Virus record (IMG/VR): IMGVR_UViG_3300042308_000549
Coordinates: 1 to 43,887 of that record
Length of the DNA: 43,887 nucleotides
Reading direction: 5' to 3' (one strand)
From: a virus
Each line of letters starts with the position of its first letter. Within the stretch, counting starts at the first letter, position 1. The translations under genes were made by a program, and so were the position numbers. Below, one piece after another: positions 5,986-38,780 of the stretch. The notes beneath the pieces are model-generated. The model ran no database searches, was not told the origin of the DNA, and saw only the letters and a program-made list of their open reading frames with translations.

Positions 5986-6488
5986 GTTGGGATGAATACG
6001 CTATGAGCATCGCCGAGGCGGTAGCTAAGAAGAGTAAAGACCCGTGGCAAAAAGTCGGCGCGGTGATCCTAAGAGAAGACAACTCCATAGCATCAGTAGG
6101 ATTCAACGGATTCCCTCAAGGCCAAGAAGAAGACTGGTCAGATAGAGAAGAGAGAAGGAAGTATGTCATCCACGCAGAACAGAACGCACTGAGGTATACC
6201 AACCCCGGCGAGGGAAAGACACTAGTATCCACCCTACTACCCTGTAGGGACTGCCTAAAGACCATAGCCGCCTATAAGATAAAGAGAGTCCTCTACAAAG
6301 ACATCTACAAGTCCGACCCAATAGCCCTAGAGATAGCAGAAAAAATGGGAGTCACAGTAATCAAATTTGAACCAGAACCCATATCAGCCTACTGGGATCA
6401 CAACACAAAACCATCCATGTTCATCGTAAAGCGCGGAGGTAAAGAAATCCACCGAGGAACATTCTCACAAGGAAGGAAGCTACTATGA
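5982..6488 (+). CDS. dCMP/CMP deaminase family enzyme
   Basis: 168 residues. The zinc-binding deaminase signature is complete: HAEQNAL (His and catalytic Glu) and PCRDC (two Cys ligands), with VGAVILRED and GFNGFPQG typical of deoxycytidylate deaminase. It would convert dCMP to dUMP for dTTP synthesis during phage replication. The C-terminal 40 residues (PEPISAYWDHNTKPSMFIV) go beyond the minimal fold. It overlaps both neighbours by 4 nt in the early operon. Substrate choice between dCMP and related cytidines is inferred. Confidence 0.9.
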   Translation: MSWDEYAMSIAEAVAKKSKDPWQKVGAVILREDNSIASVGFNGFPQGQEEDWSDREERRKYVIHAEQNALRYTNPGEGKTLVSTLLPCRDCLKTIAAYKIKRVLYKDIYKSDPIALEIAEKMGVTVIKFEPEPISAYWDHNTKPSMFIVKRGGKEIHRGTFSQGRKLL

Positions 6489-6684: not shown

Positions 6685-7230
6685 ATGAATACAAAAATCG
6701 GCGCACTGCCAACTCACAGATACATCTACATAGATAGCCAATACACCCACGAAAAACCAATCGGCCCGGTAGAAGCTATGTGGGTAGGGCTAACTAGTAT
6801 CCCATCCAGAGCATGGGGAATCAACGTCATCCTAAGAGACGGCGGCGCACTCTACAGAAACATACCTCCAAACGCAGTGAGATTCAAAGAAAAAGCCCTA
6901 GAAGGATGGAGAATAGAAGAAAGCCAACTCTGGGACTGCTACTCATATAACTTTACAATACTACAAAACCCCATCCTAAGAGGACTACCAGTAACAACCA
7001 AGATCAACCAAAACATCTACAAGGGAACCTACCTCTTCTCCACAGCCCACCTAAACGATGGCTGGTCAGATAGCCCAGACCAAGACAAAGAATTCATCTT
7101 CATAGAACTCGACAACGGAAGACTAACCATCCAACCCACAAACAAAGTAGCCTTCCAAGACAATAGCTACACCACCCCCATTATCCCCAAACTCAAACTC
7201 CAAGATACCATCTACTCTTGTGAGAAATAA
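6685..7230 (+). CDS. Conserved phage protein of unknown function
   Basis: 181 residues. The recognisable conserved parts are MWVGLTSIPSRAWGINVIL, ALYRNIPPNAVRF, WDCYSYNFTIL, YLFSTAHLNDGWSD and FIFIELDNGRLTIQPTNKV. I have seen this layout in phage genomes without a known function. No signal peptide or transmembrane segment is seen. The region is strongly A-rich on the coding strand. It has its own leader with a possible pseudoknot and a palindrome directly before the ATG, so it is probably regulated separately from the operon upstream. Confidence 0.75.
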   Translation: MNTKIGALPTHRYIYIDSQYTHEKPIGPVEAMWVGLTSIPSRAWGINVILRDGGALYRNIPPNAVRFKEKALEGWRIEESQLWDCYSYNFTILQNPILRGLPVTTKINQNIYKGTYLFSTAHLNDGWSDSPDQDKEFIFIELDNGRLTIQPTNKVAFQDNSYTTPIIPKLKLQDTIYSCEK

Positions 7231-15636: not shown

Positions 15637-16455
15637 TCAGTATGGGATGTCGTCTACTTCTTCAGTAGGCGCATCGAGGTTAAGGTCTTCAGCGGCTTTC
15701 TCCACGCACTTGGCGAATGGAGTAGTGAACCCCTTCTCCAAGTAGTATTCATAGAGTTTAGTGAGGGCAGGCTTGCCAATAGCGGCGAGCTTCTTGCCCT
15801 TCTGCGAGCCAGATGGGACGATGGCAGAAGCCCAATCAGATGGGTCTGGTTCAACTACCTTTGGTTCCTCTACCTTCGGCTCTTCTACCTTGTGCCTAGA
15901 GTAGCGGATGCCCTTGCGGTTAGCTTCGATGAAGACCGACGAGACATAGGAGCGAAGGGTTTCTTCATCCTCCACATCTTTGTAGCTATGGCGCACCAAG
16001 CTATTGATGTAGCGGTGCATCTCTACGATTTCATCAATCGCCTTCTCTGGATTATCGGTAACGATACTCTTGGGTGTAGCAGAAGATGCTACACGGGCAG
16101 GCTCCTCGCTAGGCTGGTCGAACTCAATCTTTCCAGTAGCTGTGACTTTAATTATGTCACGATCTACCTTGCCGTTCTTACCTTCGTAGGACTCATGCTC
16201 CAAGGATACTCCGGTCAGACCATGCTTTCCACGGACTGAGGACAAGGTAACTACATTACCTTTGATAGATTGTTCCTGTGTGTTGTTGAAGAACTTGAGT
16301 CCGTAGGTATTGCCGTCGATCTCAATGTCTCCACCTTGGATCACAAACTCACCCTTGGGGCCAGTAAATGTCTTAGGTTCCCACAATTTAGTGACCTTGC
16401 CAGTCACTCGTTTGATGATGTCTTTCTGTTCGATTCCGTCTAGTTGGTTACTCAT
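15637..16455 (-). CDS. SSB-like OB-fold protein
   Basis: 272 residues. Residues 12-110 look like one OB fold (IIKRVTGKVTKLWEPKTFTG, GDIEIDGNTYGLKFF, GNVVTLSSVRGKHG). The extreme C-terminus is EEVDDIPY, very close to the acidic DDIPF tip with which bacterial SSBs recruit partner proteins. Between them lies a helical module (EIVEMHRYINSLVRHSY) and a Pro/Glu-rich linker (VEEPKVEEPKVVEP). It therefore probably coats single-stranded DNA and recruits replication proteins. It follows the nuclease gene by an 8-nt overlap. A palindrome copy lies in the linker-coding part at 16052. Confidence 0.65.
   Translation of the reverse strand: MSNQLDGIEQKDIIKRVTGKVTKLWEPKTFTGPKGEFVIQGGDIEIDGNTYGLKFFNNTQEQSIKGNVVTLSSVRGKHGLTGVSLEHESYEGKNGKVDRDIIKVTATGKIEFDQPSEEPARVASSATPKSIVTDNPEKAIDEIVEMHRYINSLVRHSYKDVEDEETLRSYVSSVFIEANRKGIRYSRHKVEEPKVEEPKVVEPDPSDWASAIVPSGSQKGKKLAAIGKPALTKLYEYYLEKGFTTPFAKCVEKAAEDLNLDAPTEEVDDIPY
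16052..16067. repeat. Palindrome site 7 (TTATCGGTAACGATAC)
   Basis: One mismatch at the last base; it lies inside the SSB-like gene. Confidence 0.85.
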
Positions 16456-17317
16456 TAGTTTTATAGGTTGATTTGTAGTAGTGGCAGAAGGGTGCTACTG
16501 AGCAATAACGCTCGCAACGGATATCCCCTCCGCTTCGTTTCTCTATGCTGTGCTTCGGCCCGTAGGTAGGTAGCAGGTTCTCTGCTTCCTCCAAGGTCTC
16601 GCACACTTTGGCTGCTCGTTTGTTCCCGTCCTTCTTGATCGCAAAGGTATCTGGTTTGGCCCAGCGTTCCTTTGCATTACAAGCAGGGATGGTATCGTCT
16701 GGCATTTCAGCCGCCGCTTGGTGCAGTTTGATCCGCTCCGCTGCGTAGGCTATACACTCTTCGTTATCCCACAATGGTATGTCTACAATATGCACTGCAC
16801 ACTGAGGATACTCTTTGTCAAACTCGGCCTTGCTTGCCTGCCAGTCACGGAGGATGGCGACGATCTGACCTTTATTGACTTCGTAGCCATAGCTTCTCCA
16901 GAGCATGGCATTCAGATTGATCTGCGCTTCCCACTCAGACTTGCCGCCAAGAAGGAAGGAGAACACGGATGTTACCTTGAAGTCAGAGATTACTTTATTG
17001 CCAGTCTCGTAGAGGTCAGTCTGTCCGGTCAGCGTCCAGTCGTTAATCTGCAAGTAAAGACGCTTCTCAGTCAACTCTTCCTCTCCTCCAGCTAGCTCAA
17101 GAACCTTATGCACCGACTGACCGAGCAATGCCCACACCCTATCGGATGCGTCTTCCACGATCTCCTCGGAGTAGCGTTTCTTGAGTTGGTTAATCTTCGG
17201 TGGCCCGATTAATGTAGTCACCGAGATGTCTGCTTTCTTCGTTCCTGCCATATACCCATCGTGCGCTAACGCCCGATACATTGGTGCTGGGAGCGAGTAT
17301 CGATTTGTTATTTGCAT
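16448..17317 (-). CDS. RecB/Cas4-like PD-(D/E)XK nuclease
   Basis: 289 residues from the ATG at 17317 (MQITNRYSLPAP). The motif series of RecB-family nucleases is present: LGQSVH with His 70, TGQTDLYE with Asp 101, ISDFKVTS (D-x-K at 112-114) and AQINLNAML (Gln 132). A C-terminal Cys cluster (CERYCSVAPFC) recalls the iron-sulfur site of Cas4/AddB-like enzymes, though the matching N-terminal Cys is not seen. It would be a phage recombination exonuclease. An in-frame extension to 17407 lies inside the homing endonuclease gene and is rejected. AAGGAG about 10 nt upstream is a good ribosome site. Confidence 0.8.
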   Translation of the reverse strand: MQITNRYSLPAPMYRALAHDGYMAGTKKADISVTTLIGPPKINQLKKRYSEEIVEDASDRVWALLGQSVHKVLELAGGEEELTEKRLYLQINDWTLTGQTDLYETGNKVISDFKVTSVFSFLLGGKSEWEAQINLNAMLWRSYGYEVNKGQIVAILRDWQASKAEFDKEYPQCAVHIVDIPLWDNEECIAYAAERIKLHQAAAEMPDDTIPACNAKERWAKPDTFAIKKDGNKRAAKVCETLEEAENLLPTYGPKHSIEKRSGGDIRCERYCSVAPFCHYYKSTYKTNE

Positions 17318-18000
17318 TTGTTTGCTCTCCTTGTTTCCCAAGCTCTTTTGATAGCTTGTGATCTTTTTATTTTTGCTTCTTCTGTTTGTGCTTTTTCTGA
17401 TTGCCAATATTTTTTTACTCTATCTGAAAATGCTTTTCTTCCTTCTTCGCTTTCTCTGAAAGCTCTATTTCTATCTGCCTGCATTTTTCTTTTTTCTTCA
17501 GAAGAATAAGCGGATTTTATACTTTCTGAATGTTGTTTTCTTTTTTCTTCATTCAATTCACTCCATCTTTTTGTATGAACTTCTGATAATTTCTTTTTTA
17601 AATCTGGAGTTATTTGAAGTTTTCTTATAGCGCACATTTTTAATCTTGATTGATCATTTGACCAAAAATCTTTGGATGTTTTTGAAAACTTTTTTCTACT
17701 TTCTTCGTTATGTCTATAACCTGAAACGCCATCTCCTCCATCTGTGAAATTTGCTAAAAGATTACCGTTTTCTCTGTATGTCTTAATTAATTCTTTTTCG
17801 TGTTCAAAGGCTTTCTCCTCTGAATCCCATAAAAAAATTATCATGACTTTGTAACCATGCTTATTTGCGATTTTATGCCACAAATTATTTCTGCAATATT
17901 TAGAGTATGCTCGTTTACCCCTTCCTTTCCCAACATAGAAAACTTCAGAGGTGTCATTTCGCAGATGAATGTATGTGTAGAATTTTTTAACACTTTCCAT
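17308..18000 (-). CDS. GIY-YIG homing endonuclease with NUMOD3-like repeats
   Basis: 230 residues. The N-terminal GIY-YIG nuclease has FYTYIHLRND, FYVGKGRGKRAYSK (YVG half of the motif plus the catalytic Arg region), HEKELIKTY with the metal-binding Glu, and NFTDGGDG. The rest is a run of short helices of the type GYRHNEESRKKFSKTSKDFW, NEEKRKQHSESIKSAY, EEGRKAFSDRVKKYW, resembling NUMOD3 DNA-binding repeats. It is a free-standing mobile endonuclease. The gene is strikingly AT-rich within a more balanced operon, ends by overlapping the nuclease start by 10 nt, and supplies that gene's ribosome site. Confidence 0.88.
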   Translation of the reverse strand: MESVKKFYTYIHLRNDTSEVFYVGKGRGKRAYSKYCRNNLWHKIANKHGYKVMIIFLWDSEEKAFEHEKELIKTYRENGNLLANFTDGGDGVSGYRHNEESRKKFSKTSKDFWSNDQSRLKMCAIRKLQITPDLKKKLSEVHTKRWSELNEEKRKQHSESIKSAYSSEEKRKMQADRNRAFRESEEGRKAFSDRVKKYWQSEKAQTEEAKIKRSQAIKRAWETRRANKCK

Positions 18001-18612: not shown

Positions 18613-21600
18613 TCAAGGCTTTTTCGCGGCGAGTCTGACTTTCCTCTCGGCGGCATCTCTAGCATTGTTTCCGATTCGCTCAACAACTTTAGAATATTTC
18701 TCAGGTGTCATATCAGAAAGTCGGTTAAATCCATTCTTCATCTTTGTAGAAATAATAGTTCCGTATTCCTTCACGAACATCTCGTATTCTTTGTTCGTTG
18801 GTTGCCTGTCGAGCCTCTGTGCAAGCTGATTCCGAGTAGGGATGCTTGGGCCTCCACCTTGCTTCAAGACTAGCTCATGGAGGTTCACAGAATCCCGGTC
18901 AGTCGGAATGTTGAATGTGATCGGAACTCCGAGCTTGAATATTTTGTCAGCGGCTTCATTCGCTAGTGCGGGTTCACCAAAAGCGTTCAGAGATTTCGGA
19001 GACACAGCAGGCCCGATGAATGGGATGTTCGACCACAACGCACCTTCCAGAGTTTTCCTGTCTACTGGTTCGTTCAAGAAGTCGGAGAGGTTCCTTGCAA
19101 GGCTTGCTCCCAATACTGGAACTAGGGTCTTGGCAGGGAATGCAAGGCTCTTTGCCAAGCTCTCTACTCCACGATCTCCGTAGGCTTCAAAGAGAGGTTT
19201 CGCGGCGAAGGAATACGGGCCTCGGCGAAGTGAAGCACTCAATACAAACCCACCAATGATAGCCGCATCACCCATCTGCATTGGAGTGTTCGTCTCACGC
19301 TTCTGCTTTCTGCGAATCTGCCAATCATCCACCGCGCCAAGCATCATGGCAGGCCAAGCGAAGGCTTCAAATCCTCTCATGGTATTGATCGTGAATTTCG
19401 TTTTCCCGAAGTATACACTCACAGTATTTGCCTTGTGCTTCTTAGTCCACGAATCGTAATACTGCGGGTCTTCGCTACGAAGAGGGCCATTACCAGTCAC
19501 AACAATCTTGAATGGCTTCTCGTCTTCCTCGTCTTCCGTAGATGATGACATTGCCGCTGCGAATCCAAGCAAAACAATACTTCCGGTGATAGTTTCAGTC
19601 AGCCTTTGACGATACTGAAGGTCGTTACCCAAGCTCTGTGCATATGGAGATGTCTTACCCATCTTCTTTGCGATATAGTCGTAGGCAAATCGAACTGCAC
19701 CATACGGAGAGAACCATGCTGTCTCTCGGAATACGCGAGCGGGAACCACCGCGAATCCATAGATCATTCTGCTGAAAAGTTTGATGACTTGGTTGTCGGC
19801 TTTGTTTGCGGCGTTTGCCATCGTCTCCAACAACCATAATGCAGGGTAACTTATCACGCCACCATCGCGGGCGTTCGTTTCTTCTTCACGGAATGCGTCG
19901 AGTGACTGCCTATTCCTACCTACTGCTGACATAGCATCGTTGAGCGCGGCATCCATTACTTGTTGCGCTGGGAGCTTTGCGTCAGTCAATGCCTGTCTCC
20001 ATGAAGAAACAAAGAACTCATCTGCAAGAACCGCCGCTTTGTTTTTATCGGTTCCGATAGCGATCTGGTCATTGTAGAAGATTCGCTTTTGCTCCATCAT
20101 GGCATTGAGCATCTTTGCCCCATCCTTGCTGGACATCCCTTTCGCTTGCATCGCGGCCAAGGCATACTTGGATACCGCTTGGTTTTGAAGTGAGGCAATC
20201 GCTCCGTAGTCGAGAGCATTCAAGACACGGCGAACATAATCCATCATACCAATCATCATGTTCTTCACTCCGTCTGCCCTCTCGCGTGGAGTCTTGCCTT
20301 TATTGAATTGGTCTACGCCTCGCTTGTAGAGCTTTAGTAGCCCTTCATCATTCACTAAGTATTCCACATTGGAATAGACTGTGACGTTGTTCTTGAAAGA
20401 GAAGGCTACTGTGTTTGCCCATGACTTGATTGAGTCGATGAAGGTAGTCAATGAAGCCGTGATCTGCTCCGGTCTTGCTGTCAGTAATCCATTCAATGAT
20501 TGGGTCAACGCATTCTTTACTGCCATACCAGCAGGAGAGAAGATGTTCACAGTCATTGTTGGGATACCACTCAATGCCTGCGCGTCATAGAACTGACCGA
20601 TCACATCCCTTGCTCTGATAGGTAGCTTGGCTTTAGAAATGATGTCTTGGATTGCCTTGTGCGCTTCAGCCTTTGTTGCATCAGCGGATTTTGGATCAGA
20701 AAGGATAGCGTCATACTTGAGCAGGGCTTTGTATTGCTCTGGAGTAAACCCAGTCCATCCATTGAGTGCCGCCATGTCGCTCAACACATTCCTTGCTGGG
20801 TCTAATGCGCCAGCGCGGAGGGCTTGCAATACCTTCTGGAATGCTCGGCGGCTTCTGGTATCTCCGGTCTTCCAAGGTGCAGACTTACTAATAGCATCTG
20901 TGAATGCCTGCTCCTGCGCCATCGTGAAGCGTTTCTGGAGCGAGATGTCCATCAGCTTGGCAATCCTTTCAGCCTGCGCCAATGGTAGCCCTGCCTTGCG
21001 GAGGTAGTCACGCATGACTTCATATCTCCAGTTTGGCTTCTGTTGATCTTCTAGCGGAGTATCCTTGATGGCTTTGACGATCTCCGAGATTGGCCCTTTC
21101 TCGATAGCCTTGTTGATGGAGGATAGTTCTCTCGAAAGACTATTGATCTCATGCTGTCTCCACACAATATCAGCCAATGTCTCTGCTGCCGCCAACTCAA
21201 CCCCTGCTTCTTGTAGCTTGGCAACCAACATGGACTTCCAAGGAGCTTTACGCCCAATGTCTGGCTTTTGTTTTAAGTCATTAGCTACGATAGCACGGAC
21301 ATCATTTGTGATCTGCCTTGCCGCCGCTGGATCGAATGAAGGTGTGTCAGATTGAATCTTGGCGAGCTTTTCAATCTCAGCGTCAGCTTGCTTCTGAATC
21401 CTGTTGTATTCCTTATCAAGTTCCTGCTCTTCAGTCTTGCGTTTTTCTTTACCCTTCTCCGTAGCTTTAGTGAACTCGTCGTTAATCTTACCAACCAAGT
21501 CAGTCCCAGTTCTGCCACCAACCGATTCAAGCTCATCAGTCAACTCTTGCTCGGTGACTGGCGCAGTCTTGTCCACCGCTGCATAAGCATCCTTGATGGA

Positions 21601-24600
21601 TTGGATTTGTTCTTTCGTTGGGTTAGGCCCGTAGATGAACTCTGCTACATAATTGGTGTAGGCATCCTGCTCGGCGCGTCCCATCATGATGAATCGAGCT
21701 TTCAACTCTGCCCTTGCTGCGAGCGTTCTACCCGCATCACTAGCTCCAATCATTGCGGTAGGTAGCCTGTTGATGTTTGCCATCATTATACCAAGCATCT
21801 TGCTATCACCTTCTGCCGCGAGTCTGATGGAATACTCAAACAAATCATTCACGAACAACGCTGCACCCATGCTGATCTCACTCGCTGCTCCAGACTTATC
21901 TACCAATCTACCAATGTCATTAAGTTCTTCGGCGTATGCCAATGCTTCTTTCCTATTTCCAGCCAGCTTCCCTAATGCGCGGAATGCTTCAGTGGTATTC
22001 TTCTCAGTTACTTTTGTAGGATCGAATCGCTTGCGGAGTAAATCTTTTGTTCTGGCGATGATAGCATCTGGAGTTTCTACTTCTTCTCCCGCCTCTACAC
22101 TCATTATTTTAGTGCGGCGAGCGGCCATTTTGCGCGGCCCTTCAGCTTCTTCTTCTCTTATAATCTCCTCGCCAGCGGCAAAGCGTTTCTTAGCCGTAGA
22201 TAGGATAGCAAGTGCCGTCCTATTCGGATCGGACATCTGGAAGTTCTTACCAAATACTTTATTTGCGAATGCCTTCAGCGCATCAAGCACAGCATTCCAA
22301 AGGCTTCTGCGTTGCGGATTAACGATTGTATAGGAAGTGAAAGCAATAACTTTACTCTCTTCGATTTGGGATTCTTCAGTCTCCTCGTTATAGCTTTCTT
22401 CTACGATCTTATCTATCTTCGCTTTGTCTTCTGGTGAAAGAGAGTTGTAGAAATTATCGAATGCCGCCTTAAATTTCTTATCTCCGAATGCGTAGTGACC
22501 TAGTTCGTGAGCGATGATGTCTCCGACATTCGCGTTCTTTTTAATGTAAGCATTGTTTACAATAAGGATTCCCAAGTCTGGGTAGTATGCCGCTTGGTAT
22601 TTTTTCTCTTTATCTACTGCGTCATCCACTACATATACTCGGTCTGGAATCTTTCCACCGAAATACCTTTGGATTCTTTGGTTCAGTTTAACCTGCCCGT
22701 ATCTTTCATTCTCTGGAAGAGGGTCTGGTTCTGATGCCATCTTGCGCCTTCTGCTACTGACAGGCTTCATGTCGTTCTTCTCGACTACCTGCGTCTTGCC
22801 TGTGCGCTCGTTCTTTACATTGTAATACTGCTCTCCGAACTTCTTGTCGTTAGCACTCTGCGGGATTTCCTCTTCGATAGTGTAGGTCTGTGGACTCTTG
22901 CCTAGCTTGACTCGGTTGCCTACTGCGATGCCTGTTGAGGCAGCGGCTGGCTCCGTTATCGTTTCCGATACTGCGGGGGTGGGAGGAATTGGTTTAAATA
23001 CATTAACACTTCCGTCTGATAAAATTACCAATTTACCTTGCGGAGTAATAATATTCCCTGATGAAACATTATCATTACTTGTTATTCTTTTTTTGGTTTT
23101 TGTTACTGTATCAAAACCTATCGTAGTTGTAACATCATAAGAGATTTCTGTTTTTATTCCTTTTTTATTTAATGCACTTGCATAATCTTTTGTTGCAGAC
23201 TCTATTCCGTTTTCTGTTGAAATTTTAGTTATTTTTTTACCAGTAATTTCAAAATCTTTTGGCATTTCAGCTTGTTCAGTAGGCGCAACCTCTGGCGCGG
23301 GAGCTTCTGCTGGTGCAGCTTGCTCGGTGACTGGTGCGGGAGTGGAAAGTTTTAATTCTACAAGCGCATCTTGAATGTCGTCTGGATGCGTGTTTGTTAT
23401 TATCTTTTCTTGAAGTTTAATATCTGAAACACCTTGTCTTTTAACTCCAACTCTTGATGCAAGTAAGTCTAACGATTCAGTTTCTTGAGATTCAATGATT
23501 GGTTTTTGATATGCAGATAGATCATCCCATCTTTTAGATTCTTCTGGAGTTGGAATTGAAGAAACATTTTCTACCTTTGGAGGAACGACAACTTCTGGCG
23601 CGGCCTCTGCGATGGTTGGTGCTGGCGTGATTTGCGCGGCAGGAGTAACCATGTTTACAGATGAATCTCTATCAATAAGACCAAGCACTTCATCCAATGT
23701 GGCATTAAGATTTCCTTGCGGCCTTCTTCCTAACTTATAAGCGGAACGGGCAGCAACCTTTGAAGATACCTGACCTTGAAGTGACGGGAATACTTCTTGC
23801 GCTTTCTTTTGCAATGCCGATCCTATGCCTTTTTGTCTAAATTCTTCTGGAACGTAAAGTTCAAATACTGATGCAGGAGAGCCATCTCTTCGATCAACAA
23901 TCGTTATTCTGCCTTCAGTTTGAGGGTCTGTAAAAGTGATGGTCTGCGCTTTCCCTCCATAAATCTTTGATTTATCTTTTGGTTCTCCTTGAATAATTCT
24001 ATCAGTAATAGGTATCTCTACTGGTGGCGTGACTACTTGTTCTACTGGTGCGGCCTGCGTAGGTTGAACTGTCAAGGATTCCTTAACAGTTGGGGTAGGT
24101 TCTTCTACTATCGCCTTGGCTAACTCGGCTTGCTGACGCTCGGCTTCTGTTATCGGTTCCGATAATCCAAACTTGGGAGCTTCGGTTTTAAGCACTGCCA
24201 ACTTCTTTTGATCCGCCGCGATGTCCAGCCTCGCCTTGTTTGCTTCTGGTGAAGTAGATTCAAGCGCATCCAAGTCCATCCGCTTATTATCAATGCCGCG
24301 CTCCAGCCTTGTGATCTCTGTGGAGAGTGCTTGCGCTGCTGGAGTATCAGAATCCAAGTCGCGCATCCTTCGGTTAGATTCTTTTTCAATATCAATGAGA
24401 GCCTTCTGTTCTGGACTCATTGCTTCGATAGCACCCGCAGCGCCACCGATAAGACCACCAGCAACCACTCCGGTTGTAGCACTTTCAATCGCGCCTCGGA
24501 ATGTTGGGACATCAAAGCCTTCTCTTTGTAGAGCTATGTTAGGAGCAATCGCTTCTTGTGCGCTTTGGACACCTTCAATTGGAGCTTCCGCGCCAGCACC

Positions 24601-25422
24601 CTTCAAGATTCCCTTAATGATACCGCCGCTTGCTTCTTTGCCTTGCTTGGAAAGAACGCGAGTCAAGATAGCTTCAGCACCCGTAGATGCAGCAAGAGCA
24701 TTGAGTCCACCGCTGACAAGAATCTGATCCAAGTTCTTTCCACCATACTCCTGCGCCTGTGAAGCAAGCGTCTCTACTTGATCTTCTGGGATACCCTGCT
24801 CACGGAGATAGTCTTTCGTGCCTTGGTAGATATTCCCCTTACCCATACCTACACCTTGGGCGAATCCAGTTCCAATAGTAAGACCAACTTGTGCGGCTTT
24901 AGACAACTGCGCGGCTTTACCTGCCACACCAAATACTAATTGGGGAACCATATACCCCAAAGTATTTGCAGTCATCTCTGCTGGTGCGGATGCGAATGCT
25001 TCAAACCCTGCGGCAACTTTATCTAGGAAGCCACCATCTTGAGCCTTCTGTAGAAGCTCTGCCACTCGCTTGGAATCTTTCTTTGATTCAGCAGAGAGGA
25101 TGCTATCCATGTAGTCCTCGTAGCCAGCGATGGATTTGGATACTTCATTATCCGCGCCAAACAAATCTGTGTATCCCCTTACCGCACTACCTACACCCTT
25201 AGCAAATTGAACAGGTATATCAGCAGCTTGGCGTAATGCTCCAGATGGCTCTGGTTCTGGAATAGGTTGACCAGAAACAATTGAAGTAACTTCCTCTAAT
25301 GAATATCCACGATCTTTGGCTAAAGATATTTCCTTGTCTTCAGATGCAAGTGTATTCCAGATTTCATCATCAGAATAACCTCTTTCCCTAGCTTGCTTTA
25401 GCTCGTCAAACGTGAAAGTCAT
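18613..25422 (-). CDS. Giant polyvalent internal virion protein with GNAT and metalloprotease domains
   Basis: 2269 residues. N-terminus: two copies of a short helical unit (ARERGYSDDEIWNTL, AKDRGYSLEEVTSIV), then hydrophobic Gly/Ala segments near 155-170 and 318-335. About 500-560 is GNAT-like (FELYVPEEFRQKGIGSALQK). About 950-1050 is a zinc protease with HELGH (about 971-975). The remaining 1200 residues are mostly helical, with a hydrophobic segment near 1940 (GSIVLLGFAAAM). Proteins of this size and position, the last of the virion genes after nozzle and adaptor, act in podoviruses as packaged proteins ejected with DNA. The segment 22980-24050 is more AT-rich than the rest, suggesting an inserted module. 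Three palindrome copies lie inside. Confidence 0.75.
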   Translation of the reverse strand: MTFTFDELKQARERGYSDDEIWNTLASEDKEISLAKDRGYSLEEVTSIVSGQPIPEPEPSGALRQAADIPVQFAKGVGSAVRGYTDLFGADNEVSKSIAGYEDYMDSILSAESKKDSKRVAELLQKAQDGGFLDKVAAGFEAFASAPAEMTANTLGYMVPQLVFGVAGKAAQLSKAAQVGLTIGTGFAQGVGMGKGNIYQGTKDYLREQGIPEDQVETLASQAQEYGGKNLDQILVSGGLNALAASTGAEAILTRVLSKQGKEASGGIIKGILKGAGAEAPIEGVQSAQEAIAPNIALQREGFDVPTFRGAIESATTGVVAGGLIGGAAGAIEAMSPEQKALIDIEKESNRRMRDLDSDTPAAQALSTEITRLERGIDNKRMDLDALESTSPEANKARLDIAADQKKLAVLKTEAPKFGLSEPITEAERQQAELAKAIVEEPTPTVKESLTVQPTQAAPVEQVVTPPVEIPITDRIIQGEPKDKSKIYGGKAQTITFTDPQTEGRITIVDRRDGSPASVFELYVPEEFRQKGIGSALQKKAQEVFPSLQGQVSSKVAARSAYKLGRRPQGNLNATLDEVLGLIDRDSSVNMVTPAAQITPAPTIAEAAPEVVVPPKVENVSSIPTPEESKRWDDLSAYQKPIIESQETESLDLLASRVGVKRQGVSDIKLQEKIITNTHPDDIQDALVELKLSTPAPVTEQAAPAEAPAPEVAPTEQAEMPKDFEITGKKITKISTENGIESATKDYASALNKKGIKTEISYDVTTTIGFDTVTKTKKRITSNDNVSSGNIITPQGKLVILSDGSVNVFKPIPPTPAVSETITEPAAASTGIAVGNRVKLGKSPQTYTIEEEIPQSANDKKFGEQYYNVKNERTGKTQVVEKNDMKPVSSRRRKMASEPDPLPENERYGQVKLNQRIQRYFGGKIPDRVYVVDDAVDKEKKYQAAYYPDLGILIVNNAYIKKNANVGDIIAHELGHYAFGDKKFKAAFDNFYNSLSPEDKAKIDKIVEESYNEETEESQIEESKVIAFTSYTIVNPQRRSLWNAVLDALKAFANKVFGKNFQMSDPNRTALAILSTAKKRFAAGEEIIREEEAEGPRKMAARRTKIMSVEAGEEVETPDAIIARTKDLLRKRFDPTKVTEKNTTEAFRALGKLAGNRKEALAYAEELNDIGRLVDKSGAASEISMGAALFVNDLFEYSIRLAAEGDSKMLGIMMANINRLPTAMIGASDAGRTLAARAELKARFIMMGRAEQDAYTNYVAEFIYGPNPTKEQIQSIKDAYAAVDKTAPVTEQELTDELESVGGRTGTDLVGKINDEFTKATEKGKEKRKTEEQELDKEYNRIQKQADAEIEKLAKIQSDTPSFDPAAARQITNDVRAIVANDLKQKPDIGRKAPWKSMLVAKLQEAGVELAAAETLADIVWRQHEINSLSRELSSINKAIEKGPISEIVKAIKDTPLEDQQKPNWRYEVMRDYLRKAGLPLAQAERIAKLMDISLQKRFTMAQEQAFTDAISKSAPWKTGDTRSRRAFQKVLQALRAGALDPARNVLSDMAALNGWTGFTPEQYKALLKYDAILSDPKSADATKAEAHKAIQDIISKAKLPIRARDVIGQFYDAQALSGIPTMTVNIFSPAGMAVKNALTQSLNGLLTARPEQITASLTTFIDSIKSWANTVAFSFKNNVTVYSNVEYLVNDEGLLKLYKRGVDQFNKGKTPRERADGVKNMMIGMMDYVRRVLNALDYGAIASLQNQAVSKYALAAMQAKGMSSKDGAKMLNAMMEQKRIFYNDQIAIGTDKNKAAVLADEFFVSSWRQALTDAKLPAQQVMDAALNDAMSAVGRNRQSLDAFREEETNARDGGVISYPALWLLETMANAANKADNQVIKLFSRMIYGFAVVPARVFRETAWFSPYGAVRFAYDYIAKKMGKTSPYAQSLGNDLQYRQRLTETITGSIVLLGFAAAMSSSTEDEEDEKPFKIVVTGNGPLRSEDPQYYDSWTKKHKANTVSVYFGKTKFTINTMRGFEAFAWPAMMLGAVDDWQIRRKQKRETNTPMQMGDAAIIGGFVLSASLRRGPYSFAAKPLFEAYGDRGVESLAKSLAFPAKTLVPVLGASLARNLSDFLNEPVDRKTLEGALWSNIPFIGPAVSPKSLNAFGEPALANEAADKIFKLGVPITFNIPTDRDSVNLHELVLKQGGGPSIPTRNQLAQRLDRQPTNKEYEMFVKEYGTIISTKMKNGFNRLSDMTPEKYSKVVERIGNNARDAAERKVRLAAKKP
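20045..20060. repeat. Palindrome site 9 (TTATCGGTTCCGATAG)
   Basis: One mismatch at the last base; inside the giant virion gene (encodes AIGTDKN). Confidence 0.85.
22956..22971. repeat. Palindrome site 10 (TTATCGTTTCCGATAC)
   Basis: One mismatch at the last base; inside the giant virion gene at the edge of its AT-rich segment (encodes VSETIT). Confidence 0.85.
24150..24165. repeat. Palindrome site 11 (TTATCGGTTCCGATAA)
   Basis: Exact copy, identical to sites 1 and 8, inside the giant virion gene (encodes LSEPIT) near the other edge of the AT-rich segment. Confidence 0.9.
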
Positions 25423-25431: not shown

Positions 25432-26934
25432 CTACTTGGAAGATGTTAGCTTTTCAAGCTCTGATTTTAATGCTTCTCGTTCGCTCCATAGCCTGTCGTA
25501 TTCATCCTTTTGTTTTTTCAAGAATTCTGGTCTCATCAAATCTTTTCTAGTTGAACCTCCAGATAATGATGAAATCTTTTTATCATAATCAGATATTCTT
25601 GTTCTCAATGATTTCTCGTTTGAAGTTTTTTGACTTTTAGATTGGCGAGCCGATGACTCTTGAACAAGTTTAGTAAATGGATTGTCTGGAGCATATGGCA
25701 ATTGAGCGGCAGGTAGTCCAGAAGTTGGTTGCTGTGTAGCGGCTTCTCCTTTTACTGGGAATCTTTCCTTCTGTGGTTGCGCGGGAGCTTCCGCTGGAGC
25801 TTCTGTTACACCTTTTTCTGATCCAAGGAATTTAATGCCTGATCCAGAGAGTGCTGGTATTGATTGAGCTACAGTCAACTTTGACGCTTGATCTTTAGAT
25901 ATAGAATACTCGTCCTTATCATTTCCTTGGAATGTTAAAGAGTATATTTCTGGATCATCTGTTGGTGCAGTCACCGCATTTGCAATGCCACCATTCCTAT
26001 TGAACAACTTTACAAATGGTTCCCTTTCTCCAATAGGAGCCTGTTTATTCATTGCATTAACAGCATCAGGAAGATTGTTTACAGCTTTAATATTAAAGCC
26101 ATATCTTTCTTCTCCAACTTTTTCATCTACTTCAGAAAGTGATTCGCGGATTTCAGACCCCGGCTTATCCGATGTAGATACAGTTCTTTTTATTTTTGTT
26201 ATTGTTCCAACTTCTGGAATTAAAAGGTCTCCCTTTAGATTTGGGAATAGGTTTGATAATCCATCAATCTTTCGTGATTCATATCCCTTTGGTTTTTCAG
26301 TTGTCGTAGATTGTGCAAGCGTAGCTTGTTTATCTTCTGGAGATTTTGCCCTAAATTGAATGACCTGTGCATACATCTCTTCTTGCTCTGGAGTTTCAAA
26401 CTCTGGCATACTTGAGGCTGCTGCTACGTCAATAACATCCGCATCTGGTAATAAAGTTCCTTCATCAACAAACTCTGCATTCATAGCAGGCATTCCGCTG
26501 CCATCACCCGTTCCTCCAGCACCCATTCCACCTTGACCAGCGCGGAGTCTTTCACTTCCAGATGGGCCAGCGGGAAGGGTTGCCCCAGAGGCTGCTAATC
26601 GCATTGTTTTATATCTATTCTCATCTATAGCTTGACCACCCATCATTCCTAGTTTTGCTAGGTTTTGAACATATGGGTTAGATGGGTCTTGTGCTGCTAG
26701 ATTAATAATTGATGAATACCCTGCGCCACTCTGTCCAGCGGAGAATGATTTCATAGCTTCTTGCAAAGCTGGAAGCGCACTCATAGCAAATTGCTTGTCT
26801 CGGTTGTCTTTCATCTGAAGACTGATCTTCTCTCCGTATGCAGCTAGGTCTTTGCCTACTTGCATACCATAGTTCATTACAGCGGTTCCCCCTGTGCCGA
26901 AATCTGCTGCGCTCATTGCTGGTATCATAGCCAT
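25432..26934 (-). CDS. Putative internal virion protein
   Basis: 500 residues. The N-terminal 120 residues are helical (MSAADFGTGGTAVMNYGMQV, GKDLAAYGEKISLQMKDNR, FAMSALPALQEAM); the middle is Pro/Gly/Ala-rich and disordered (GMGAGGTGDGSGMPAMNA), and the C-terminus is a charged coiled-coil-like region (KKQKDEYDRLWSEREALKSE). No enzyme motif is seen. The place between a membrane-active-looking protein and the giant protein suggests a packaged internal protein. The name is based on context, not on family recognition. Confidence 0.6.
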   Translation of the reverse strand: MAMIPAMSAADFGTGGTAVMNYGMQVGKDLAAYGEKISLQMKDNRDKQFAMSALPALQEAMKSFSAGQSGAGYSSIINLAAQDPSNPYVQNLAKLGMMGGQAIDENRYKTMRLAASGATLPAGPSGSERLRAGQGGMGAGGTGDGSGMPAMNAEFVDEGTLLPDADVIDVAAASSMPEFETPEQEEMYAQVIQFRAKSPEDKQATLAQSTTTEKPKGYESRKIDGLSNLFPNLKGDLLIPEVGTITKIKRTVSTSDKPGSEIRESLSEVDEKVGEERYGFNIKAVNNLPDAVNAMNKQAPIGEREPFVKLFNRNGGIANAVTAPTDDPEIYSLTFQGNDKDEYSISKDQASKLTVAQSIPALSGSGIKFLGSEKGVTEAPAEAPAQPQKERFPVKGEAATQQPTSGLPAAQLPYAPDNPFTKLVQESSARQSKSQKTSNEKSLRTRISDYDKKISSLSGGSTRKDLMRPEFLKKQKDEYDRLWSEREALKSELEKLTSSK

Positions 26935-26939
26935 AATAT

Positions 26940-27860
26940 TTATTTTCCTTTGTAAGCAGATTGGGCTAATGTATAGTATTGGCCTCCACTAGAAGATGTT
27001 TGTGGAACATATTGTTGCCCTTGATATCCTGTAATTGGTCTGTTTTGATATTCTTGATATGCTTTATATGCGTCAAGCCCACCTTGAGCTAAACCGCCAA
27101 TCGCACTCGCTGTTCCCATGTTGGCTTGGTTTTGCTGGTTAGCTAATGCGATATTTCCTACAATCTGGTTTGCTCCCGCTTGGTATGATCCACCTAACGC
27201 TGCCGCTGATAGTCCGCCAAGGTTAGTTGCCAACGATCCAGCTTGTGTTGATGTGGTAAGAAATGCAGGAGCCAAACCCATCATTTGTTGGAACATTCCC
27301 ATTCCTTCTTTCAATGCAGCCAGCGATCCTTTAGGATATAATGCTTGTGCCGCTTGGAATCCACCAGCCTTTCCTGCCGTGAATGGATTAAATCCAGCAC
27401 CACCTACTTCTGCTATAGTTTGCATCATGTCAGGAGTTAGCTTCCCTCCTAACAATGAAGAAATAGATTCGCTAATCTGTTGCCTTTGCGCTGTAGCTCC
27501 GGGTTGAAATTGCTCTAACGCTTGCAGTGTTCCAGCGGTCAGTTCACCAGCGGCTACGTTATAATCAGGTATGTTCTCGCGCAAGACTTGTCCAGTTTCT
27601 TTTGGCAATCTTTCAGCCATTTCTTGCGTTTTAGCTGTTTGTTTTTTTAAGCTTTTCTGCCCAGCCTTTGCTGTTTTGTTAGATTGGCTTGATGCAAGCA
27701 TTGTAGCTCCAGCACCTATTGCTGCCGTGCCAACGGCACCTGCCGCACTAGCTACAACAGCACTTGCCCCTAATGCGGTTGCTGTAGCTGCAAATACAAA
27801 GAATTGTTGCGGGTGCTTATTGTATATGTAATCTTCTGGATGTTGAAGTAGTAATCTCAT
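26940..27860 (-). CDS. Putative internal/ejection virion protein with hydrophobic N-terminus
   Basis: 306 residues. Residues 22-58 are a long Ala/Gly-rich hydrophobic stretch (FAATATALGASAVVASAAG, AVGTAAIGAGATMLA), then a Lys/Gln-rich helix and Gly/Gln/Ala-rich repeats (LANQQNQANMGTASAIGG). This matches the style of podovirus proteins that enter the host membrane during DNA ejection. The C-terminus is Tyr/Gln-rich (YQNRPITGYQGQQYV). It overlaps the cupin gene stop by ATGA. Function is inferred from composition and position. Confidence 0.6.
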   Translation of the reverse strand: MRLLLQHPEDYIYNKHPQQFFVFAATATALGASAVVASAAGAVGTAAIGAGATMLASSQSNKTAKAGQKSLKKQTAKTQEMAERLPKETGQVLRENIPDYNVAAGELTAGTLQALEQFQPGATAQRQQISESISSLLGGKLTPDMMQTIAEVGGAGFNPFTAGKAGGFQAAQALYPKGSLAALKEGMGMFQQMMGLAPAFLTTSTQAGSLATNLGGLSAAALGGSYQAGANQIVGNIALANQQNQANMGTASAIGGLAQGGLDAYKAYQEYQNRPITGYQGQQYVPQTSSSGGQYYTLAQSAYKGK

Positions 27861-28372
27861 TGCAATTCCTTTATTTTATTTTGATCCCATAATGGCATTC
27901 TAGGATCGTTTATATCTATAAATGGATTCATGTCTGTGCATATAAGAGATTTAGTGAGTTCTTCAATATCTGTCAACTGCGTAGCATAACAAGCAACCCA
28001 GATAGTATCTTCATGGTTGTATAAAAGCCTTCTAGTTCCAGCTTTAGTTATTCCAGAATATGGTGCTTTGTATCTTTCAACAGGACTATCATAATACCAC
28101 ACACTCACATCTCCTTGAAGAATAAAAAATGGATGCGTTGTTAAATGGAGTGCGCTAGTTACAAGAGAACCTGCTGGCATGAAGATTTCCCTAATATACA
28201 TATTTGGAGTAAATGAATGTTTTAAAGGGCAATCGACTTGCGGTTGCTCAATTAACCATGCCTCCATAATATTTAATTTATCATTTGGGTCTTTGTAGGC
28301 AACAAACTCCGATGGGTCTTTATAGTTACCAATAAATCTTCCAGCGATATTCTCTGTAGTTTCTAGTGTCAT
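27857..28372 (-). CDS. Cupin-fold phage protein
   Basis: 171 residues. The core (YIREIFMPAGSLVTSALHLT, PFFILQGDVSVWY, GTRRLLYNHEDTIWVACYAT) has the strand order and G-x-V turn of a single cupin barrel, with His residues at the expected ligand positions. Phage cupin proteins of this type lie beside the adaptor gene and are of unknown function; they may be virion proteins rather than enzymes. It is coupled by ATGA to both neighbours. Confidence 0.7.
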   Translation of the reverse strand: MTLETTENIAGRFIGNYKDPSEFVAYKDPNDKLNIMEAWLIEQPQVDCPLKHSFTPNMYIREIFMPAGSLVTSALHLTTHPFFILQGDVSVWYYDSPVERYKAPYSGITKAGTRRLLYNHEDTIWVACYATQLTDIEELTKSLICTDMNPFIDINDPRMPLWDQNKIKELQ

Positions 28373-29331
28373 CTATACAAGAAGTAATCGTTGGGTGAGG
28401 GAGAGAGTAGATCAGACCCGATTAGGTTATCTGCTCTACTATAGTTGGCTATCCGTAATGGGGCGCAAGTTGGTATCTCGTATCCTGACATTTCCTTCTC
28501 TTGCTCTTTAATGGCAAGGTCTAGGTTTACAAGGAACTCTTGCGCCTTCCTGTTGTCTCTGGAGTTCAGAGCAAGGATAGCGTAGATCATCGAATCAGGA
28601 ATGAATTCTATCAACTCTTTCGGATCAGTCAGATCAAAGTATTTCTTCGATGCGTAAAGCGTGATACACTCGCAGGTCTTGGGTGCTTTGAACCTACGGA
28701 AGGTTGGGTTAGCATCGTTCGGTTGATAGATCGCTATCAGCGTCTTTGCTTCCAATGCTGTATCGTAGGCATACACCCGAATCCTTCCTTTGGTAATTGG
28801 CTTGGTTACTGCCCGAATTCCTTTCACAAGGAGATCAGACTTTGCCAGCGTTGGAGGATTGGCAGTAGCTACCTTAACCTTGTGGTAGGTGTCATACTGG
28901 TCTTGCGCTTCAAACATCAATTCTACGCCGATGTCTTCAGCTTCCTCGGCCATTACTCCGATTTGGTATGGATGCGTAGTGTAATCGCGGAAGAGGACAT
29001 GGAGTCCTCCTACTTCTACGATTCCTCTATGGCATGAGTGATCCGCATGGAGAGCAAAAGCGTTGGTCGCATTGAACCATTCGTCTGCTAGAGACGCAGA
29101 TTCATTCCCGATCCAAGCTAGTTTGATTTGCTCATATCGGGCTGGCAGCGTGAAGCAATCGTTCACACAGCAGATTTGGACATACTCTTCTTGAGATGTC
29201 CATGCTCGCTTATTCCATAGCAGTCGCCTTGCTTGGTTTACGGCTTTGACTCCGCGCTCGTATGAACAAGTGCCTGAATCTCCGACGAACCCCTTCACAA
29301 GCTCTACCATCTCTTCGAGGGTATCGGCCAT
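28369..29331 (-). CDS. Putative head-tail adaptor / tail structural protein
   Basis: 320 residues. It begins with a helical region that includes SYERGVKAVNQARRLLWNKR, a pattern seen in adaptor or tail-tubular-A-type proteins, then has an all-beta middle (CFTLPARYEQIKLAWIGNE, GRIRVYAYD) and a helical end (YAILALNSRDNRKAQEFL). The position between the nozzle-like protein and the internal proteins supports a tail or connector role. The start at 29331 lies 5 nt after a palindrome site. Confidence 0.55.
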   Translation of the reverse strand: MADTLEEMVELVKGFVGDSGTCSYERGVKAVNQARRLLWNKRAWTSQEEYVQICCVNDCFTLPARYEQIKLAWIGNESASLADEWFNATNAFALHADHSCHRGIVEVGGLHVLFRDYTTHPYQIGVMAEEAEDIGVELMFEAQDQYDTYHKVKVATANPPTLAKSDLLVKGIRAVTKPITKGRIRVYAYDTALEAKTLIAIYQPNDANPTFRRFKAPKTCECITLYASKKYFDLTDPKELIEFIPDSMIYAILALNSRDNRKAQEFLVNLDLAIKEQEKEMSGYEIPTCAPLRIANYSRADNLIGSDLLSPSPNDYFLYR

Positions 29332-30088: not shown

Positions 30089-32095
30089 TTAGTTCACGAT
30101 ATTGTAGTTCCAGTATTTCTCTTGGCAACACAAAAATGGTTCGCACTCTTGATTTTCTTCTGGGCAGTCACCAATCGGAGAGTCATCGTTGTTCTTGATG
30201 TTCGCCATTAACCTTACTCGGTCAACTGTAGCTGCTCCGGTTAGGTTTACTTTGATCTGGAATTCTGATCCTTCTACCGATGGGATACCTGCCAAATCAT
30301 TACACTCGCTTGGGTCTGGTGTGTTAAACTTGTAGCGTTTGTAGCGATTACCGCCCCGTTGTGGGAAGCATTCAGTTACTACTGGTGAACATGGGTTGCA
30401 ACCAAATGTCGTAGGCACTTTCAGTTGTGACCAGCATGGATTGGAGTCAGCGCGGAAATCGACATAGCTATCTACTTCCCCTTTAATCTCACTCATCCAC
30501 ATTTCTCCACCAGTAATCTTTTTGCGGAGGAACTTGTTTGTAGCCCCACTTCGGTTGAAGTCATACCTGCCAGTTGTGAAGAAGGATTCAATCTGCCTTG
30601 TTCCATTAGGGCCGTAGTCGTCGCCTTGGCTATCTGTGAACTCGTAGAGGCGGTTCTTATTGTCTTTGTCGAATGAGAATCCGAATCCCCGCTTTTCGCC
30701 TTGGATCAGTGCAGTTAGAAGTTGAGTTGGTCTGATGCCTGTCCATACTCCATTCCAGCGGAACTGAAGTTGTGCGTCCGGTGCTGGCGTTGAGGATTGG
30801 TCGAGGTCGAGAACTACCATGCCCCGATGAAACCTGTTCAGTCCTTCTACTCCTTCTGCTCGGTAGGTCTGCGGTGCAACTGTATTGATGAGGTAGTTGT
30901 TGAAGAAGATAGTCGAAGCGAATTGCTTCATCCACGGGGTATCATTTGATACCCACTTGTTCACATCCCTTGATAGTTTACGAAGGGAGAAGTATCTATT
31001 GAACTCGGATTGAGTATTGGAATAGAACGCCCAACCATCATGTGATCTGAACCAAAGTTCGGAGTTTACCAATGCAAGATTGGGGCTAGTGCATCCACGC
31101 CCAAGAAGTGAGATACGCTGGATGTTCGATGTGTTCCATTGTGATCTTGGTAGAGAGACATCCATTGAGAATGCTCCGTTCCCTGTAAGGACTACAAGCT
31201 GACCTTGGCCGCGAAGGTTGTAGCCTAACTCTGGCATTACCTTCATTCCTGTAATGTTTCCCATCATTGCTGGAGTCGAGAACGCCCCGCCTTCTGCCCA
31301 GTATCCAATCTCCGTGAAGTTCTCTGTATTCTTGGTGTCGGTAAAACCACCACCATAGATAATGTCAGAAGCGTAAATTTGGTTGAACCTATCAGATACG
31401 AATACTCGCCCGAAGGCATACTCCATGATCGTTCCAATCGGCATCTTTTTTAGATAAGGGTTGAGTCTATAGGCAGGTAGCTTAACTGTTCCTGTCCCTG
31501 TTCCCCTTTGAGTGTCTGTAATAACTGCTGTAAACTTAACTCCAATCGTATTGGATGGCGCACCGATCAAAGTGAAGTTCGTAGTTCCGACTGAAACTAT
31601 CTCGCAGAAGTCTCCGTTCTGTATTTCGCTTGCTGTCAGCGTTCCTAATACCCCATCCCATGCTATGGCATTCTGGTAGCCATTTTGGATATACGCCCGA
31701 TCTTCAGCTTGCACGAAGAATGTGTGCATCATGCCCGGATCGTTACCTTCGATGATCTTATAGGCGAACGCTCGGTTGTTTACCATCTTTAGAAAGTAGA
31801 TGATCCCCGATACCGATAGCAGGATACCATCGCTCGTTCGCAAGTTGGTAGAGCGATATGGATACGCACCTTGGAAGTTGCCACCAAGAATATCGTTAAC
31901 GATAGTATCGGCTTCTCCGTCACCAACGAGAATCGGGATGTTCCGAATGCTTGGTCTTGTTCGGTTGATGCCGCCTCGGAATGTTCTATTTACCGACTCT
32001 GATACTACAGACTCCGGTAAATACGATGGATGAGTATCTGCGTCTTGCGCGATGATACTTGTGAATCCATCAAAGACTGATCCTTCCGCTGGCAT
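30089..32095 (-). CDS. Putative tail nozzle / beta-propeller-like structural protein
   Basis: 668 residues, almost all beta. It begins GSVFDGFTSIIAQDADTHPS and has repeated blades with W-x-F and GRVFVSDRFNQIYASDI, and LGYNLRGQGQLVVLTGNGAF patterns. Length and position, beside the adaptor, resemble podovirus nozzle (tail tubular B) proteins. Residues about 155-205 (GDFCEIVSVGTTNFTLIGAP, GVKFTAVITDTQRGTGTG) form an insertion module that recurs in many phage proteins. The C-terminus is Cys-rich (CPEENQECEPFLCCQEKYW). A palindrome copy lies near its start. Confidence 0.6.
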   Translation of the reverse strand: MPAEGSVFDGFTSIIAQDADTHPSYLPESVVSESVNRTFRGGINRTRPSIRNIPILVGDGEADTIVNDILGGNFQGAYPYRSTNLRTSDGILLSVSGIIYFLKMVNNRAFAYKIIEGNDPGMMHTFFVQAEDRAYIQNGYQNAIAWDGVLGTLTASEIQNGDFCEIVSVGTTNFTLIGAPSNTIGVKFTAVITDTQRGTGTGTVKLPAYRLNPYLKKMPIGTIMEYAFGRVFVSDRFNQIYASDIIYGGGFTDTKNTENFTEIGYWAEGGAFSTPAMMGNITGMKVMPELGYNLRGQGQLVVLTGNGAFSMDVSLPRSQWNTSNIQRISLLGRGCTSPNLALVNSELWFRSHDGWAFYSNTQSEFNRYFSLRKLSRDVNKWVSNDTPWMKQFASTIFFNNYLINTVAPQTYRAEGVEGLNRFHRGMVVLDLDQSSTPAPDAQLQFRWNGVWTGIRPTQLLTALIQGEKRGFGFSFDKDNKNRLYEFTDSQGDDYGPNGTRQIESFFTTGRYDFNRSGATNKFLRKKITGGEMWMSEIKGEVDSYVDFRADSNPCWSQLKVPTTFGCNPCSPVVTECFPQRGGNRYKRYKFNTPDPSECNDLAGIPSVEGSEFQIKVNLTGAATVDRVRLMANIKNNDDSPIGDCPEENQECEPFLCCQEKYWNYNIVN
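31890..31905. repeat. Palindrome site 13 (ATATCGTTAACGATAG)
   Basis: Two outer mismatches but a perfect ATCGTTAACGAT core; inside the nozzle-like gene (encodes TIVNDI). Confidence 0.75.
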
Positions 32096-35274: not shown

Positions 35275-35278
35275 AGTT

Positions 35279-35294
35279 TTATCGTTAACGATAG
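35279..35294. repeat. Palindrome site 15 (TTATCGTTAACGATAG)
   Basis: One mismatch at the last base. It is 4 nt before the preferred spike start (35274) and 10 bp downstream of a TTGACA on the minus strand (35310-35305), so it would overlap the spacer or -10 of that possible promoter. Confidence 0.85.
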
Positions 35295-35333
35295 TTAAAG
35301 TTTCTGTCAAGCGTTTTTGTGTCTTGTAAAGAT

Positions 35334-36388: not shown

Positions 36389-37705
<1,317 letters not shown>

Positions 37706-38607: not shown

Positions 38608-38780
38608 TTTTTCATTATTTGTTTGGTCATATAGACGCAGGTTAGCACACCAGCGATTATACTGATGATTCCTCCCGCTATTCTAATAGACGCTTCTATT
38701 TCCGGTAGCATACTTACTATAAATCCTGTGGTCGAAATGATCGTTCCAAATATTCCATGAGTTGTTGTATTATCGTTCAT
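38604..38780 (-). CDS. Small two-helix membrane protein, lysis-associated (58 aa)
   Basis: A polar start (MNDNTTTHG) precedes two hydrophobic segments (IFGTIISTTGFIVSMLP and IRIAGGIISIIAGVLTCVYM) and a basic end (TKQIMKK). This is a class II holin-like layout, so it may be the holin, an antiholin or an Rz-like partner for the lipoprotein. ATG at 38780 overlaps the esterase stop. The first codons contain half of the dispersed palindrome (AACGATAA). Confidence 0.6.
   Translation of the reverse strand: MNDNTTTHGIFGTIISTTGFIVSMLPEIEASIRIAGGIISIIAGVLTCVYMTKQIMKK

Follow-up and report, generated by a model that had tools for sequence, protein, structure and literature searches.

Probable exchange of modules at conserved in-frame joints in a polyvalent-type phage protein

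Phage polyvalent proteins are regarded as vehicles that bring in a whole set of early effectors together, and how the domains of such a protein gather and are exchanged is the question addressed here. It is raised by a gene in IMG/VR record IMGVR_UViG_3300042308_000549, a 43.9-kb linear virus contig analysed over its whole length of 43,887 nucleotides (the window), in which an open reading frame (ORF) on the minus strand at 18613-25422 encodes a protein of 2269 residues, hereafter Q. A reading made from the letters of the DNA without database searches (the sequence-only reading) had proposed a virion protein combining GNAT-like and HELGH protease segments with an AT-rich insertion. The ORF is real and open over its full length, and it does encode a long polyvalent-type protein with effector-like enzyme segments within a late (tail/virion) gene block. 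Comparison with relatives further argues that Q is probably an injected multi-effector polyvalent protein, in which homologous recombination at conserved, in-frame joints shuffles the cassettes anew.

Relatives were collected by scanning IMG/VR with the Q protein, its C-terminal (C) module and two linker sequences, which gave about 60 distinct contigs, all of them metagenomic (denoted by L-numbers); four of these (L030, L031, L041 and L048) have C modules belonging to other families and were used solely for comparing linkers and cassettes. Against this set the anatomy of Q is modular: the two ends are shared (up to about residue 470, and from 1100 to 2269), and residues 470-1100 form a mosaic. 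In this variable part, cassettes follow one another with recurring Pro/Ala linkers between them, termed C, B and A, and then comes a hinge (GIAVGNR.KLGKSPQTY). The order C, B, A is kept whenever several linkers co-occur, L012 carries a second copy of B (a duplication), and the genes of the first relatives range from 1964 to 2638 codons. The parts of Q are as follows, with guanine-cytosine (GC) content where given, the predicted local distance difference test score (pLDDT) of the AlphaFold2 (AF2) model for the hinge, and a recurring palindromic DNA motif called the dyad.

18613-25422, minus strand: whole ORF, polyvalent-type protein of 2269 residues, open throughout and present in relatives
24166-25422, minus strand: N-terminal (N) module, residues 1-419, one of 13 N families (60% identity clusters)
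24151-24164, no strand assigned: dyad TATCGGAACCGATA closing the N module, coding for LSEPIT; 36 of 41 genes have a dyad there, across N families
23623-24015, minus strand: cassette 1, residues 470-600, GNAT-like (motif A RQKGIG), GC 0.415
23596-23619, minus strand: linker C (PTIAEAAP), residues 602-609
23335-23595, minus strand: cassette 2, residues 610-696, helical, no assigned function, GC 0.395
23281-23334, minus strand: linker B (PVTEQAAPAEAPAPEVAP), residues 697-714
22984-23280, minus strand: cassette 3, residues 715-813, no assigned function, GC 0.293
22948-22980, minus strand: linker A (TPAVSETITEP), residues 815-825, containing the dyad at 22957-22970 (TATCGGAAACGATA)
22753-22935, minus strand: hinge, residues 830-890 (GIAVGNRVKLGKSPQTY...), predicted SH3/KOW/PWWP-like barrel, AF2 pLDDT about 70-83
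22138-22752, minus strand: zincin-like metallopeptidase cassette, residues 891-1095, with HELGH at 22495-22509 and the Glu-Glu of SQIEE (1018-1022) downstream
18616-22125, minus strand: C module, residues 1100-2269, one of 6 C families
20046-20059, no strand assigned: dyad within the C module, coding for IGTD in a different frame

The modules assort freely between phages. Across 171 pairs of 19 genes, the identities of N and C modules are uncorrelated (r = 0.06), with extremes in both directions: L010 and L087 share 94% in N and 33% in C, and L005 and L006 share 27% in N and 96% in C. Clustering at 60% identity yields 13 N families and 6 C families in varied combinations, N0 being paired with C0 and C1, and N1 with C0, C1, C3 and C5. 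Cassettes are likewise shared between otherwise diverged genes: Q and L015 have cassettes 96-97% identical and C modules at about 41%, and cassette 2 recurs in L012 at 99% nucleotide identity (316 bp) between the same linkers, and in L081 at 90%. Within the C module a second insertion hot spot is seen in L006, L007 and L013 near the equivalent of Q residue 1326, where 290-390 residues without a Pfam match are inserted.

Junctions between shared and unshared sequence are enriched at the joints: of the 218 unique block ends in the variable region, 45 fall no more than 15 bp from a dyad or from linker A or B, against 12.4 expected (maximum 23 in 300 randomisations). The clearest single case is the pair L032 and L033, which are 99.975% identical over 8049 bp and then carry differing known cassettes right after linker A.

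The joints themselves are conserved in frame and as DNA. Twenty-three bases of linker A are found in 43 viral contigs, chosen by the DNA match itself, and every copy is read in one common frame within a long ORF of Q type; a 23-base stretch of linker B occurs in 19 contigs, in one frame throughout. In genes found by other means, 19 copies of linker A have the same codons apart from a few changes. Where residues are identical, their four-fold synonymous sites agree at 0.84 in linker A and 0.93 in linker B, versus 0.26-0.61 in the C modules of the same genes. Protein selection alone cannot produce such frozen synonymous sites; the cause is recombination that homogenises the linkers, a constraint on the DNA itself, or a combination of the two. 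Because linker and dyad DNA is near-identical across otherwise diverged genes, crossovers at the joints would be in frame and would preserve domains, and we infer that the conservation of the joints is upheld because crossovers happen there.

The dyad extends well beyond this gene. Its motif ATCGNNNNCGAT is found at 18 sites versus 0.5 expected, spread over positions 180-42566 of the window, and its core (T)TATCGNNNNCGATA(A) is dense in most relatives (0.2-0.5 per kb), with none in L016. It closes the N module in Q and in most relatives, across unrelated N families; each copy of linker A contains it, the C module of the L021 group starts with one, and a further copy lies within the C module. 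Two frames are used to read it, one giving LSE[PT]IT and the other IGNDN or IGTD, so that the DNA and not the peptide is what is kept. The palindromes that the sequence-only reading had placed at the edges of the AT-rich stretch are real (22957-22970 and 24151-24164), but they are not a local feature. The stretch itself fares similarly: residues 455-815 do have a lower GC (0.394, versus 0.481 in the remaining ORF, and below every flanking window of the same size, whose minimum is 0.446), but they make up a row of separately exchanged cassettes and not one insert. A single AT-rich insertion flanked by palindromes is rejected in view of the three cassettes of differing GC and the genome-wide distribution of the dyad.

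Ends of shared blocks also cluster near dyads, both inside the ORF (33 versus 4.8 expected within 12 bp, although a conserved motif by itself stretches an alignment up to its edge) and outside it (51 versus 16.4 expected within 25 bp, where many dyads adjoin gene starts, at which breaks are common anyway). It is quite possible, if somewhat less than evenly so, that the dyad serves regulation, through a phage regulator, or the organisation of DNA and lies in the gene by chance, and that block ends cluster there through conservation alone. The placement of several copies suggests a regulatory site, the intergenic dyads at 180 and 18494 lying 20-30 bp before TTGACA and three copies lying 8 bp before start codons. 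Such a role, however, leaves unexplained both linkers B and C, which are equally conserved without a dyad, and the dyad that closes N modules in 36 of 41 genes from N families that are unrelated; since linkers B and C lack it, the dyad is not the whole cause of linker conservation. A more specific proposal, that TATCGNNNNCGATA is a dedicated crossover site, acted upon by a nuclease or DNA-binding protein of the phage or the host, so that module borders both in this gene and in other parts of the genome would preferentially be exchanged there, giving programmed in-frame domain shuffling in a lytic phage, appears improbable, although it is consistent with the block ends near dyads, the dyad at N-module ends across families and its reading in two frames.

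As to the enzymes, the GNAT-like segment of the sequence-only reading carries motif A (RQKGIGSAL at 529-537), whose RQKGIG at 529-534 follows the R/Q-x-x-G-x-G/A pattern in a strand-helix order in a low-confidence AF2 model, and three Pfam GNAT families agree on it, but all of their scores are below cut-off. The assignment is backed by a related cassette in L078, located elsewhere in its gene, which passes the Pfam cut-off (29.7 versus 20.7 bits) and aligns with that of Q at 38% over 47 residues (pairwise E = 5e-4). The GNAT motif of Q was found in none of the 21 first relatives (0/21), and among other viral contigs no relative of the cassette that carries it was found.

The call of a zinc metallopeptidase, with HELGH at residues 972-976, is backed by an alignment in which H, E, G and H of the H-E-x-G-H motif are invariant in all 14 of 14 copies. 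The cassette formed by hinge and peptidase has 96-97% DNA identity in L015, L016 and L020 and is more distant in others; the pLDDT of the peptidase region is mostly 73-91, and the Glu-Glu of the downstream helix (SQIEE, 1018-1022), conserved in the copies that extend there, is a candidate third zinc ligand judging from sequence and model. In a Foldseek search with the model of residues 470-1100, the SH3-like hinge alone was matched (probability near 1, but E >= 0.13), with no match at E <= 0.001 and no fold match to a solved zincin. An HExxH motif occurs in the variable region of 11 of the 25 complete genes, versus about 0.01 expected by composition over all 25, and is absent from it in the other 14. 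Loss of the HExxH and GNAT core residues in relatives had been named as an outcome that would speak against the sequence-only reading; whole domains are indeed often absent, yet the catalytic residues of the peptidase are invariant wherever it occurs, a split result that points to the presence or absence of functional cassettes and not to their decay.

Among the other cassettes of the relatives, ART-PolyVal (PF18760) is recognised in L055 (3.7e-20; 73.6 bits, cut-off 31.2) and in L031 and L047 (about 3e-6), and a MutS_I-like cassette in L007 is below cut-off (0.008); most match no known family. The Pfam scan of Q itself gave no domain curated as polyvalent-specific. L015 (2-1460) and L055 share a cassette between linker A and the hinge that resembles tRNA-guanine transglycosylase (SGAF...) by eye, with no Pfam match.

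Could the peptidase be a maturation enzyme, cutting a polyprotein at the linkers before or after ejection? Processing by such peptidases has been predicted in parts of the work of Iyer et al. (PMC5512222), and linkers recurring between domains would give uniform cut sites. This is nonetheless unlikely, as the 14 complete genes without HExxH (L003, L004, L006, L007, L012 and L021 among them) keep linkers and cassettes, and the freezing of linkers at the codon level is unexpected for a protease site. Because those genes lack the motif, the peptidase is also dispensable for the common function of the protein.

There is only a slim chance that the mosaicism is partly artificial, short-read assemblers having joined different phages at repeated linkers, although all sequences are metagenomic. 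A case open to it is the junction that separates L032 from L033: the L032 arrangement recurs in L028, while L033 ends 333 bp past the junction without a second copy. Residues 888-912 of L032 contain a 45-bp scrap of the KLGEKGGVLIPTKED domain after linker A and before a different cassette, which looks like the scar of an earlier exchange. Against chimeras as a general cause speaks the unchanged recurrence of whole architectures in independent assemblies (L002/L011 at 100% over 5913 bp, L053/L064 at 99.98%, L073/L074 at 99.99%, and L049/L060/L037 at 100%). Moreover, junctions are always in frame, and modules differ by 30-70%, so that chimeras would be expected equally at other conserved stretches.

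That Q is a conventional internal virion (ejection) protein, whose Pro/Ala spacers are disordered, evolve fast and look alike through low-complexity composition, and whose GNAT and HELGH motifs are incidental, would fit the weak Pfam scores in Q, its Pro/Ala-rich linkers and the lack of a PDB or PHROG match, but is very improbable and already largely refuted, since composition cannot hold synonymous codons identical or keep one 23-mer in frame in 43 contigs, cassettes 96-99% identical are common to otherwise diverged genes, HExxH is invariant in the peptidase alignment, and ART-PolyVal is above cut-off in a relative.

The reading favoured here, an injected multi-effector protein with exchangeable cassettes, retains the injected multi-enzyme protein of the sequence-only reading and would work as follows. 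The carrier has two exchangeable ends, the N and C modules, and between them a row of short predicted effector cassettes, joined by the recurring Pro/Ala linkers in the fixed order C, B, A, hinge. This modular build, the joints conserved in frame as DNA, the free assortment and the clustering of junctions at the joints are directly seen in the sequences. The protein would be made late, alongside the tail proteins, and would probably be packaged and ejected with the DNA, after which the GNAT-like acyltransferase, the two unassigned domains and the zincin-like peptidase may turn against targets or defences of the host. Gene order and the polyvalent-protein literature (PMC5512222) suggest that synthesis is late, that the protein is packaged and ejected, and that its cassettes work as effectors in the new host. 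Modules would be swapped between phages of the group through homologous (short-homology) recombination, for which the sequence data point to the joints, possibly with participation of the neighbouring exonuclease.

Several points weigh against this reading. The case for packaging comes from gene order alone, because no protein of the group has a known virion or annotated phage relative, and Q is a presumed and not an observed virion protein. Chimeric assembly at linkers is possible for single cases, and L033 could be such a chimera. An earlier test of block ends with more linker patterns gave 54% versus 11%, a contrast inflated because some of the patterns were picked post hoc; the stricter count of 45 versus 12.4 holds. 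Of the three GNAT families, which agree on about residues 499-562, Acetyltransf_7 reaches 14.7 bits where the cut-off is 27, AF2 models the GNAT part poorly, and the peptidase of Q is likewise below the Pfam cut-offs.

The genomic setting is that of a late, virion neighbourhood. The Q ORF forms the downstream end of a minus-strand gene block that includes tail-fibre-like proteins (33130-35310, 36389-37705 and 40405-42276) and a short-tail-fibre-like gene at 27857-28372; these lie upstream of Q on the same strand, and the gene order is kept in relatives, whose contigs are 53-68 kb long and in one case contain a terminase. The nearest neighbours are the following.

16448-17407, minus strand: exonuclease gene (phrog_2139, 9e-51), candidate recombination function, just downstream of Q
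25432-27860, minus strand: two genes (500 and 306 residues) directly upstream of Q, candidate co-ejected proteins, highly variable between relatives

The two upstream genes (25432-26934 and 26940-27860) are hypervariable, at about 25-50% identity, and possibly encode co-ejected partners; the genes at 28369-29331 and 30089-32095 are mostly at 84-96% identity among closer relatives. Between Q and the exonuclease, a GIY-YIG-like gene (17308-18000) has a weak match (PF22945, E 0.007) and is a possible homing endonuclease at a mosaic border. Elsewhere in the window, the early block contains a glycosyltransferase (4535-5662; phrog_3408, 9e-193) and dCMP deaminase and ferredoxin-like genes (5982-6488 and 6685-7230), and the tail block a 501-residue protein (38777-40282) with weak alpha/beta-hydrolase similarity (Peptidase_S9, 0.001), possibly a depolymerase or esterase.

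Database searches place Q apart from described phages. Pfam, PHROG, NCBIfam and PDB searches with Q gave zero matches above cut-offs; tblastn against 50,697 phage records gave no match for Q, the C module, the peptidase or three other late genes, and weak matches alone for the GNAT cassette (E 0.05 and 0.9). In the bacterial genome contigs searched, neither the C module nor linker A was found, and no prophage. The C module has no sequence match in PDB, nor a recognised similarity to known ejection proteins of the T7 gp16 or P22 type, and its AF2 model (pLDDT 49) is too poor for use or fold comparison; a T7-type portal model matched nowhere, controls included, and is uninformative.

In polymorphic toxin systems a constant delivery part is combined with exchangeable effector parts. 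Q resembles them in having a delivery part with swappable effectors, but its effectors lie in mid-protein, several in each, and both ends are exchangeable; immunity genes were neither sought nor expected. A closer likeness is to the phage polyvalent proteins as presented in parts of Iyer et al. (2017, PMC5512222), which are very long multi-domain proteins near late genes, predicted to be injected with the DNA, with an overlapping domain menu (zincin metallopeptidase, GNAT, ART-PolyVal, MutS-I). The ART-PolyVal and GNAT domains of the relatives and the late-gene location place Q among them, as far as sequence can tell, and injection would follow by analogy. Two or more disparate domains are indeed present, GNAT-like and zincin-like in Q, and ART, GNAT and MutS_I-like in the cassettes of relatives. 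In contrast with the polyvalent proteins of that account, where domain accretion is described but, in the parts considered, not exchange at fixed joints, the Q group has recurring linkers, joints frozen as DNA, a border dyad and free assortment of N and C modules. Polyvalent proteins of the phage N4 virion RNA polymerase type, also covered there in part (PMC5512222), are likewise very long late-gene proteins with a metallopeptidase, injected with the DNA, but Q has no recognised RNA polymerase module and no sequence match to a PDB chain.

With respect to exchange, the parts of Smug et al. (2023, PMC10684548) that bear on it describe protein fragments shuffled between phages, with recombination as the likely driver, in a survey based, unlike ours, on annotated function. 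Mosaicism through recombination of diverged sequences is also known from lambdoid phages and lambda Red (homeologous recombination; PMC2327257, in the portions relevant here), and an exonuclease gene adjoins Q; in Q, however, the homology segments lie within one ORF, in frame and between domains, and no annealing protein was identified. The general idea is thus already covered by Iyer et al. (PMC5512222) and Smug et al. (PMC10684548), as far as their relevant parts go. What appears new here are the in-frame linkers with frozen DNA and the genome-wide border dyad, which term searches did not find in either text: the word 'linker' does not occur in PMC5512222, and PMC10684548 does not mention polyvalent proteins, ejection proteins or linkers.

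As the joints are visible in the DNA, exchange between polyvalent proteins becomes directly testable. The linkers also serve as search handles, one scan with 23 bases having led to 43 genes, and such scans can serve to list candidate injected effectors, most of them without a known family. That the peptidase is optional in the Q group bears on the idea that polyproteins of this kind are processed by a peptidase. Finally, exchange at the joints may let a phage swap enzymes that are predicted to be delivered into bacteria.
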